Shown piece by piece: positions 5,341-35,428 of a stretch of 35,494 nucleotides of DNA. The stretch is taken from the NCBI GenBank assembly GCA_944324185.1, contig CALUVI010000022.1, positions 1 to 35,494 of the forward strand. Direction: 5' to 3'. The notes beneath the pieces are model-generated. The model did no database searches. It was not told the origin of the DNA and was given only the letters and a program-made list of their open reading frames with translations. The translations under genes and the position numbers were made by a program. Each line of letters begins with the position of its first letter. Positions within the stretch are counted from its first letter, which is position 1. The stretch comes from Candidatus Gastranaerophilales bacterium. GTDB taxonomy: Bacteria > Cyanobacteriota > Vampirovibrionia > Gastranaerophilales > Gastranaerophilaceae.

Positions 5341-5896
5341 ATTCTTTATTACCCTCACAATGACATCAGGCTTGTAGGTTTACTTCCCAAAGTGGTGTCA
5401 TTCAGAGGGCGTTAGCCCGAAGAATCTCTATAACTATTGTAAAAATTTTCTATTCACTATTCACTCCTCACTATTCACTAGTTAAAGTGATTCTTCGCCC
5501 CTGAATTGCTGTCGGGCTCTGAATGACGCCAAGCTTGTAGGCTTACTTCCAAGTTTGCTGTCATTGCGAGAAAATCTTTGATTTTCGTGGCAATCTATTT
5601 TTTATTTAATTGTCAAATTCGTTCTGGATTGCTTCGGGCTGAATGGCTGTCCCCTCGCAATGACGCCCGACTTGTAGGCTTACTTACTAACCTAATTCAT
5701 TTACCCCCGCAATGACGCGGAACTTGTAGGCTTATTTCATGCCTAAAATCATTTACCCCTGCCGTCATTCAGAGGGCGTCAGCCCGAAGAATCTCTTTGA
5801 AGTTATTGTCGGGCTAAAGCCCGACCTATTACTCAGTTACCAATAACTCCTCTTGATCACTTGGTCACCCGGTCACTTGATCACTGCCAAATCCAT
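5341..5896. repeat. Intergenic repeat island 1
   Basis: There is no gene in this 570-base spacer; it is a patchwork of small repeats. Family A (GTCATTCAGAGGGCG...GAAGAATCTC) is at 5397-5428 and 5764-5795 (31 of 32 identical), with an inverted relative at 5489-5527. Family B (GTCATTGCGAG...GGCAATC) is at 5560-5595, with an inverted relative at 5627-5664. A 52-base tandem unit starts with CAATGACG at 5658 and 5710. A GTTATTGTCGGGCTAAAGC hairpin is at 5802-5828. A 47-base block at 5841-5887 matches 22650-22696 at 45 positions and contains CTTGATCA-type octamers. Confidence 0.85.
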
Positions 5897-22115: not shown

Positions 22116-22734
22116 GTTTAGTGAATGGTGAGGAGTGAAGAAAATGTAGAATGGTGACTGAGTGATTGAGTGACTAAGTGACTAAGCTCTGTAGGTTGGG
22201 TGAAATCCGACAATAACTTACACGATGCCTGTGGAGCAAGCTCCACACTACTTAACTTCATACTATTTAACTTTCCCCTCGCCCCTTGTGGGAGAGGGAG
22301 CAGCCGTTCTTGAGCCGGATGGCGAAAGTTACGGATGCGGGTGAGGGGTTAACCCCGTTTAAGATTGCTTCGAGCTGTCTTGGCTGTTCCCTCGCAATGA
22401 CGCTGGGTCTGTCGACTTACTTCATGACTAAAATCATTTACCCCCGCAATGACGCCAGATTTGTCGGCTTACTTCACAACTAAAATCATTTACCCCCGCA
22501 ATGACGTCGGGCTTGTAGGTTCACCTGACAACCCAAATACATTTAACCCTGCAGTCACTCAGTCACCGGTTTTTATATATTTTATTCAGTTGTCAAATGT
22601 TAGTTATTGTTGGGTTTCACCCAACCTACAGTTTTATTATCACAGTCACCAACAACTCCTCTTGATCACTTGGTCACCTGGTCACTTGATCACTGCAAAA
22701 CATACATTCACTATTCACTACCCAACTACTATTT
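22116..22734. repeat. Intergenic repeat island 2
   Basis: There is no gene in this 669-base spacer. It contains an octamer run (TGACTGAG-like, 22154-22187), an inverted GTTATTG-type hairpin (22190-22217) and a perfect 18-base palindrome TGTGGAGCAAGCTCCACA (22230-22247). A hairpin with CCCCTCGCCC/GGGTGAGGGG arms spans 22275-22348. A family-B relative is at 22363-22401. Three 52-base units begin with CAATGACG at 22395, 22447 and 22499. A further hairpin is at 22603-22630, and the 47-base block shared with island 1 is at 22650-22696. Confidence 0.85.
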
Positions 22735-25379: not shown

Positions 25380-25715
25380 ATGATAAGTATGGAAATCCGC
25401 TCGTCACAAAAATTTTGCATAATTACCCCGCTCAGTCCGCGCCTTGATGCGCGTGAAACATGCCGTTTGAGAGAAGAAATTAATCTTCATCCGGACAAAC
25501 TTATAGGTATTGACCTTAATTATGTTGAAGACTGTACAATAGATTTTCTGGAACTGGCAAAAAAATTGCATGCCGGATTTTTTAACATTCAGTCGGATAT
25601 TTTTTCATTGTTTATAGTCATGGACATTGATAAATCAACAGAACTTTATACAACGGAAGAAGATTTTATTACCGGAAAACGACGGCTTTTAAACCGCAGA
25701 TTTAGCGTCGTATAG
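25380..25715 (+). CDS. Small STAS-like protein
   Basis: A 111-residue protein with a STAS-like layout: a strand KFCIITPLSPRLDARETCRL, in short IITPLSPRLDA, then LIGIDLNYVEDCTIDFLELAKKL (strand plus helix, the usual lDls-x-v-x-x-id turn) and SLFIVMDIDKSTELY. The residue after the CTID motif is Phe, with no conserved phosphorylatable Ser. No kinase or sigma gene is adjacent. STAS proteins act in partner switching or transport regulation. The SD GAAAG is weak. A second ATG lies three codons in. Confidence 0.5.
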   Translation: MISMEIRSSQKFCIITPLSPRLDARETCRLREEINLHPDKLIGIDLNYVEDCTIDFLELAKKLHAGFFNIQSDIFSLFIVMDIDKSTELYTTEEDFITGKRRLLNRRFSVV

Positions 25716-25758: not shown

Positions 25759-25787
25759 TTGAAAAATTTTCTTTTTTGTATTAATAT
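25759..25787 (+). promoter_or_regulatory. Promoter ahead of the candidate structured RNA
   Basis: TTGAAA (25759-25764) and TAATAT (25782-25787) with 17-base spacing. A start near 25794 would place the transcript's 5' end just before the first arm of the long stem at 25801. Confidence 0.5.
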
Positions 25788-25800
25788 ATTGGAGACATAA

Positions 25801-25966
25801 ATTCTGTAGGATTATTTATCCAAGCCGGAGCGCGGGGAATTATAAAGATAGTCGCCTAACAAATTTTGGTGTCGGGTAACAAAAAATTTAGGAAAGACGC
25901 TTTATACGGAACCAAGCGAGAACAAAGTGAAACCGTAGGGAGGATTTTTAGGATAGTCTACAGAAT
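25801..25966 (+). ncRNA. Candidate structured RNA or leader of the lytic transglycosylase gene
   Basis: A 166-base segment is closed by a perfect 9-base stem ATTCTGTAG (25801-25809)/CTACAGAAT (25958-25966). Inside are TACGG/CCGTA (25905-25909/25933-25937) around 23 bases rich in A and G, AAATTTT/AAAATTT (25861-25867/25883-25889) and a repeated GTCG-x-x-TAACAAA motif. Base composition is more GC-rich and ordered than the other spacers, and no open frame is present. A promoter lies just upstream and a coding start 30 bases downstream. It could be a riboswitch-like leader or a 6S-like RNA. I could not match it to a known family. Confidence 0.5.
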
Positions 25967-25995
25967 CCAATTTACAATAATATAAGAGGATTTCA

Positions 25996-26610
25996 ATGAT
26001 TAGAAAAACAGTCTTAACAACTATTGCATTGCTGGCTTTGCTATGCGTTAGGGTTCAAGCTGCTCCGACTCCGGAGAATGTAATTAAAGAAACCATTGTC
26101 AAACATTCAATAGAAATGAATGTAGATCCGGCACTGGCTCTCAGTATTGCAAAGAAAGAATCGGGATTCAAACATGAACTTAGGAGTCCTTACGGCGCGG
26201 TCGGAGTATTCCAACTGCTCCCGTCAACAGCACAAAGAATGGGATTTAACCCTTATTACTTAAGCGAAAACATTAAAGCCGGACTGACATATTACAAAAT
26301 GATGTATAAGATGTTCGGCTCGACAGAACTGGCTCTTGCTGCTTATAATGCAGGTCCCGGTAATGTTAAAAAATTCGGAGGAACAATTCCACCGTACAGC
26401 GAAACAAAAAGATTCGTATCCCAGATTATGCTTGAGTACAACAGGCAGAAAACAGACCCTGACCCTGCGATTACAAAAGTAATTCAGGCAAAAGCAAAAA
26501 TGCCGGACAGGGAAACGGAAGCTAAAAATACCCCGAAACAAATTGAGCTTCCTAACCTGAGTGAGATACCGGAGGTTAGACATTCGGAACCGGCAATGGA
26601 AATACTTTAA
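25996..26610 (+). CDS. Soluble lytic transglycosylase (SLT domain)
   Basis: A 204-residue secreted murein hydrolase. The signal peptide spans about 1-22 (ends VQA). The goose-lysozyme-type SLT domain has catalytic E55 (IAKKESGF), the AVGVFQLLPSTAQRMG motif (68-83) and AYNAGPGNVKKFGG (116-129). The C-terminal 70 residues are Pro/Glu/Lys-rich with no domain. It cleaves peptidoglycan with formation of 1,6-anhydro-MurNAc. SD AAGAGGA supports the start. The 5' region contains the candidate structured RNA, so expression may be controlled at the leader. Confidence 0.9.
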   Translation: MIRKTVLTTIALLALLCVRVQAAPTPENVIKETIVKHSIEMNVDPALALSIAKKESGFKHELRSPYGAVGVFQLLPSTAQRMGFNPYYLSENIKAGLTYYKMMYKMFGSTELALAAYNAGPGNVKKFGGTIPPYSETKRFVSQIMLEYNRQKTDPDPAITKVIQAKAKMPDRETEAKNTPKQIELPNLSEIPEVRHSEPAMEIL

Positions 26611-26618
26611 AAAATGCG

Positions 26619-26648
26619 AAAAAGACTCTTATAAAAGGGTCTTTTTTG
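26619..26648 (+). terminator. Rho-independent terminator after the transglycosylase gene
   Basis: AAAAGACTC pairs with GGGTCTTTT (with a G-T pair) around a short AT loop, followed by T residues. Its T-tail runs straight into the next promoter. Confidence 0.7.
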
Positions 26649-26655
26649 TTATAAT
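26647..26655 (+). promoter_or_regulatory. Extended -10 promoter for the P-loop kinase gene
   Basis: TGTTATAAT: TG, one base, then TATAAT (26650-26655). Only 6 bases separate it from the ATG at 26662, so the transcript should start at the start codon. It is nested in the terminator tail of the preceding gene. Confidence 0.55.
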
Positions 26656-35119: not shown

Positions 35120-35148
35120 TTGATTTTTTAGTATTTAGTTGATAATAT
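35120..35148 (+). promoter_or_regulatory. Promoter for the tRNA/repeat region
   Basis: TTGATT (35120-35125) and TAATAT (35143-35148) with 17-base spacing. A start near 35155 would fall six bases before the first repeat unit, not before the real tRNA. Confidence 0.5.
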
Positions 35149-35160
35149 AGGATTGGTTAC

Positions 35161-35428
35161 GGGTTTGTGGCACCCTGCCGGGTAAGAGTTGACTAAATGT
35201 CAAGTTTTGCGAGAGGTAGGCAGCGCACACGGAGCGGAAGCGGAGTCAGCGCTACCGCAAGCCTGAAATTGAAAATTTATATCTAAGTCGTCACGGGCCT
35301 GTGGCACTCTGCCGAGCAAAAGTTGACTAAACGTCAAGTTTTGCGAGAGGTAGGCAGCGCACACGGAGCGGAAGCGGAGTCAGCGCTACCGCAAGCCTGA
35401 AGTTGAAAATTTATATCTAAGTCGTCAC
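35161..35428 (+). repeat. Two tandem 134-base units that begin with the tRNA 5' end
   Basis: Units at 35161-35294 and 35295-35428 differ at 8 of 134 positions, all transitions. Each opens with GGG(TT/CC)TGTGGC, the first 11 bases of the tRNA at 35429. They then diverge from the tRNA. Inside each is a hairpin GCAAAAGTTGAC/GTCAAGTTTTGC (one mismatch; five-base loop) and a GC-rich near-inverted GGTAG...CTACC segment. The unit ends TCTAAGTCGTCAC, directly before the tRNA-like start of the next. Confidence 0.85.

Follow-up and report, generated by a model that had tools for sequence, protein, structure and literature searches.

A structured leader RNA in front of a lytic transglycosylase gene

Within the window, by which we mean the whole 35,494-nucleotide stretch of Candidatus Gastranaerophilales DNA that was analyzed, a 166-base block at 25801-25966 (+ strand) forms a rod of nine helices immediately 5' of a lytic transglycosylase (SLT-domain) gene. 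This block is with high confidence (probability about 0.9) a cis leader of some kind, and our best reading is that of an orphan riboswitch-like leader which may control how the mRNA is translated or how stable it is. The elements of the transcription unit are listed below.

25759-25787 (+): predicted promoter with -35 TTGAAA, 17-nt spacer and -10 TAATAT, from a pattern scan and conservation in a 51-sequence alignment
25801-25966 (+): structured leader RNA core, present once per genome in the genus and covered by covariance model R1 (170 positions)
25967-25985 (+): linker (CAATTTACAA...), common to most other genera of the family
25986-25993 (+): Shine-Dalgarno segment GAGGATTT, GAGGATT being conserved both within the genus and among 24 aligned leaders from other genera
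25996-26610 (+): lytic transglycosylase gene, 204 aa, with a signal-peptide-like N-terminus and an SLT domain (Pfam PF01464, E = 1e-19)

Transcription was predicted to start at about 25794. Among the 51 aligned homologues the TTGAAA-type -35 and TAnnnT-type -10 elements were largely retained, while the bases surrounding them were not. The transglycosylase gene also gave NCBIfam matches to partial lytic transglycosylases. A preliminary description, made from the sequence of the window, had proposed a structured RNA with a perfect 9-base closing stem and its own promoter, about 30 bases before the gene and in a spacer unlike the repeat-built spacers elsewhere. These particulars held. The closing stem is ATTCTGTAG/CTACAGAAT (25801-25809/25958-25966), the promoter-like TTGAAA-17-TAATAT arrangement is present, 29 bases (25967-25995) separate the end of the RNA core from the start codon, and the interspersed repeats seen in other spacers of the window do not occur in this one.

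Comparative support for the fold

Folding of the single sequence was not significant (z = -1.35, with 21 of 200 shuffles equally good) and comparative evidence was therefore required. This came from an alignment of 48 homologues (A2), in which a 46-pair structure had 92.6% of its cells paired, as against 39-46% when partners were slid. Changes on both sides were found at 21 of the 46 pairs, and the 141 double-change cells compared with 51 expected by shuffling, none of 500 shuffles being as good. When changes were placed on a tree derived from the gene and not from the RNA, a parsimony count (not R-scape) gave approximately 62 independent canonical-to-canonical double changes over 47 pairs. 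The corresponding null, in which 3' columns were reassigned, gave 3.5 +/- 2.8 with a maximum of 16 in 200 replicates. The excess of G.U cells (188) over A.C cells (22) identified the + strand as the RNA. Mean pairwise identity was 77% in the core, 73% in the gene and 49% in the upstream intergenic DNA. The proposal of a structured RNA was thus borne out, with the comparative evidence decisive, and the compensating changes in relatives that the preliminary description had suggested looking for were found.

From the base upwards the helices are P1a, P1b, P1c, P2, P3, P4, P5, P6 and P7, followed by a variable apical loop. Their strands and the segments between them are as follows.

25801-25821 (+): 5' strand of P1, comprising P1a ATTCTGTAGG, P1b TTATTT and P1c ATCC; P1a and P1b covary and P1c is nearly invariant
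25822-25824 (+): 5' side of the P1/P2 internal loop, opposite GGA at 25939-25941; conserved purines
25825-25828 (+): 5' strand of P2, CCGG, of which CGG pairs with CCG at 25933-25935; three double changes on the tree
25830-25835 (+): 5' strand of P3, with tandem G.A-type mismatches; partner 25912-25917
25842-25847 (+): 5' strand of P4; partner 25900-25905, with double changes at 6 of 6 pairs
25851-25859 (+): 5' strands of P5 (GTC) and P6 (CCTAA); partners 25896-25898 and 25888-25892, P5 covarying and P6 invariant
25863-25887 (+): P7 and the variable apical loop, extended in certain species by up to about 45 nt
25888-25898 (+): 3' strands of P6 and P5; partners within 25851-25859
25900-25905 (+): 3' strand of P4; partner 25842-25847
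25912-25917 (+): 3' strand of P3; covariation and double changes on the tree
25918-25932 (+): 15-nt purine-rich unpaired segment GAGAACA(A/U)AG(U/C)GAAA between P3 and P2; invariant columns
25933-25938 (+): 3' strand of P2, CCG-UA-G with a 2-nt bulge; APC covariation and double changes on the tree
25940-25947 (+): copy of GAGGATTT within the core, identical to 25986-25993 and retained in nearly all homologues
25942-25966 (+): 3' strand of P1, with P1c GGAT at 25942-25945, P1b at 25951-25956 and P1a at 25957-25966

APC covariation added one pair to the base model, C25825 with G25938, which changes from C-G to U-A. In P3 up to 10 independent double changes on the gene tree were counted at a single pair, and a further, non-canonical covariation from C.A to A.G lies beside G.A, a pattern which indicates a structured tandem mismatch. 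Since P6 and the CGG/CCG portion of P2 are invariant, they are supported by complementarity and not by covariation. Across the 166 nt there are approximately 49 invariant positions, many of them unpaired. The segment at 25918-25932, strongly conserved and unpaired in the fold model, is the strongest candidate binding core.

Linkage to the transglycosylase gene

When 55 loci were oriented and compared, the transglycosylase gene was the next gene in 54; at the exception, L024, the contig end falls inside the RNA. Contig ends likewise cut L023, L055 and L056 on the 5' side. The distance from the end of the matched block to the start codon was 18-26 nt, apart from L030, where the match extends only to position 160 of the 186-position query and the distance is accordingly 48 nt. 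Three genomes of the genus in which the RNA was not found (G017, G027 and G040) had no close intact orthologue of the gene either: the SLT proteins found there were distant ones, except for a fragment of 55% identity at the end of a contig in G040. A scan of the interval between RNA and start codon gave no terminator-like site, which argues for a cis leader and not a free small RNA, and no conserved leader ORF or leader peptide was found in this interval. The terminator scan listed none after the gene either; inspection by eye shows a stem (AAAGACTCTTATAAAAGGGTCTTTTTT) there at about 26621-26650, with T's after it. Just upstream of the promoter region lies a 111-aa ORF (25380-25712) which is conserved in many loci and has no Pfam or NCBIfam match.

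Distribution of the RNA and an older frame in the family

When 97 relatives were searched at the DNA level, almost every genome of the genus gave one strong match, and no match outside the genus was convincing. Covariance model R1, applied to 286 genomes of the order, recovered the RNA from 31, which all belong to this genus, and in none of the 286 was it seen apart from the gene; a permissive covariance search of 35 genomes returned no homologue outside the genus below E = 1.5. A pattern scan of named genomes yielded 47 stretches. Where titles were informative, these were mostly from Gastranaerophilales, Melainabacteria and cyanobacterial MAGs, with one labelled Acinetobacter, and many of the records derived from rumen, faeces or gut. 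Matches in Spirochaetota and Fibrella reached only 14.9 and 8.5 bits and were rejected as chance. No copy was found in viral contigs.

The leaders of other genera in the family were simpler. At 24 orthologous loci the gene is preceded by a promoter of this type in the corresponding position, by a basal hairpin which, as in P1, starts with ATTC, by the same linker, and by GAGGATT before an ATTTTG start. These leaders consist of a hairpin of about 60 nt only and lack P2-P7 and the conserved segment. In 23 of them the 5' and 3' strands paired better with each other than with exchanged strands in 5000 of 5000 permutations. Three loci of genus g32 (L114-L116) were without the family leader. As scores of the short leaders with the covariance model do not rise above chance, homology between P1 of the genus RNA and the basal hairpin of the other genera is inferred from position and flanks. 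With promoter, hairpin and linker present in other genera and the upper domain missing from them, the domain of approximately 130 nt was probably added in this genus on top of an older leader frame. The division into a basal part shared by most of the family and an upper domain confined to the genus had escaped the preliminary description. The short family-wide hairpin and the elaborate genus-specific domain provide a before/after pair for the gain of a sensor-like domain.

The start region

The AUCC strand of P1c could pair with either copy of GAGGATTT, at 25940 or at 25986. Both copies are near-invariant, so that pairing with AUCC receives no evidence from covariation. No conserved, covarying anti-Shine-Dalgarno helix was found in the homologues. 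The candidate AATCC/GGATT helix was unsupported, with AATCC varying in about a quarter or more of the species. Predicted accessibility of the Shine-Dalgarno segment was middling and not bimodal. GAGGATT precedes the start codon in none of the 26 other window genes checked.

Comparison with known RNA classes

An Rfam search of the locus, at gathering scores and also to E = 10 with permissive filters, gave nothing relevant, and a literature search found no riboswitch report for Gastranaerophilales. The Rfam comparison suggested in the preliminary description, which had named 6S RNA as a class to be considered and had seen no conserved blocks of the known c-di-AMP switch, accordingly assigned the block to no known class. 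For the c-di-AMP (ydaO-yuaA) riboswitch RF00379 there was no match at the locus with E up to 10, and the best score elsewhere was 12.9 bits against a cut-off of 38. This riboswitch was absent from the genome and the genus. Among 240 genomes of the taxonomic class it occurred in 3, which belong to one distant family, where the genes that follow it look like potassium-transport proteins when read from sequence. The genome does encode a diadenylate cyclase. RF00379 resembles the present RNA in being a leader of similar length found on wall hydrolase genes in other bacteria, but here an unbranched rod of nine helices without a covariance-model match is seen, and the architecture of the c-di-AMP switch differs from a single unbranched rod. 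In other bacteria c-di-AMP riboswitches control cell-wall hydrolase genes, a published precedent being the one on a wall peptidase (PMC9960051).

The YjbJ motif of Streptococcus, a weak riboswitch candidate about 30 nt upstream of the gene start, is likewise located in the leader of a predicted lytic transglycosylase gene (PMC11109978). As described it has two hairpins and occurs in Streptococcus only, and is thereby set apart from the one large rod of Gastranaerophilales. 6S RNA (RF00013) shares a long rod with unpaired segments and a similar length; here the RNA is a leader, and RF00013 had no match at the locus. A separate candidate for 6S RNA was found elsewhere in the genome (L031, G000:C11:35166-35346), scoring 44.8 bits, just below the Rfam cut-off of 46.4, and is probably the 6S RNA of the lineage.

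Proposed mechanism and alternative explanations

The conserved structured domain lies in the 5' leader, in cis to one gene, as in RNAs of the riboswitch kind. In the mechanism that we propose, transcription from about 25794 would produce a single-gene unit for a secreted lytic transglycosylase. The RNA would fold into the basal stem P1, the rod of helices P2-P7 separated by internal loops, and the purine-rich segment at 25918-25932, and polymerase would then continue into the gene. The upper domain would serve as a sensor, more likely of a small molecule than of a protein. Once folded, it would stabilize P1 and the AUCC/GGAU helix, and this would set ribosome access to the GAGGAUUU start region or the stability of the mRNA, such that cell-wall cleavage would follow a cellular signal. 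We give this mechanism as a whole, in which the upper domain senses a signal and controls the transglycosylase, an even chance. Against it, only one target gene per genome was found among the homologues, while many riboswitches have several targets, and the gene is kept in genera without the upper domain. The failure to find a conserved, covarying anti-Shine-Dalgarno helix and the middling accessibility predicted for the Shine-Dalgarno segment also count against it.

With regard to the signal, c-di-AMP would be the first candidate ligand, because a diadenylate cyclase is encoded, the known switch is absent and such switches govern wall hydrolases elsewhere. A new riboswitch class, restricted to one gut genus of Gastranaerophilales, grown on the older hairpin and responding to a wall-related or second-messenger ligand (possibly c-di-AMP, by a new fold), is a tentative proposal to which we assign somewhat less than even odds. 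Should it bind c-di-AMP, it would add one more to the RNA classes for that messenger. Independently of the ligand, a well-supported structured RNA that is absent from Rfam has been found in an uncultured gut lineage.

Alternatively, an RNA-binding protein might recognize the rod and thereby repress or activate transglycosylase translation. The lack of branches, the purine-rich internal loops and the tandem G.A-type mismatches would suit recognition by a protein as well as a small-molecule aptamer, and a single target per genome is consistent with this; no candidate protein is known, however, and the many invariant unpaired bases would all need to be contacts, which leaves this explanation unlikely, if worth weighing. 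Slightly lower we place a role in mRNA stability, whereby the structured 5' end would only protect the transcript or mark it for decay, no signal being involved, and the short hairpins of other genera would act likewise. The retention of a basal 5' hairpin in most of the family, the preference of its strands for their own partners and the failure to detect a switch helix all fit such a role, but a plain protective hairpin would not need so many invariant positions, many of them unpaired.

The preliminary description had left the choice between a riboswitch-like leader and a stand-alone small RNA. The conserved fold, the promoter, the fixed position in front of one gene, and the lack of a terminator or conserved ORF ahead of the start codon support the leader. 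For a stand-alone or processed small RNA that acts elsewhere and shares the promoter of the gene it can be said that conservation is higher in the core than in the gene and that the ends of the core are defined by P1. Such an RNA is nevertheless very improbable, given the lack of a terminator, the invariant linkage in the scanned order and the absence of the RNA where the gene is missing. That the block is a very divergent ydaO riboswitch, as the cyclase, the absence of the known switch from the genus and the type of target would allow, is hardly credible in view of the architecture and the failure to match RF00379.

Other features of the window

Repeat units of about 52 nt (CCCCCGCAATGACGCC...CTTGTAGGCTTACTT) are common to two distant spacers, 5349-5742 and 22386-22531, and further repeat families with TTGATCACTTGGTCACC were seen at 5834, 22643 and 27378. 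A 134-nt unit occurs twice in tandem at 35145-35412, and a tRNA gene (35429 on) follows directly. The first 11-14 or so bases of the second unit (ACGGGCCTGTGGC) are also those of the tRNA, as if the 5' part of the tRNA had been duplicated.
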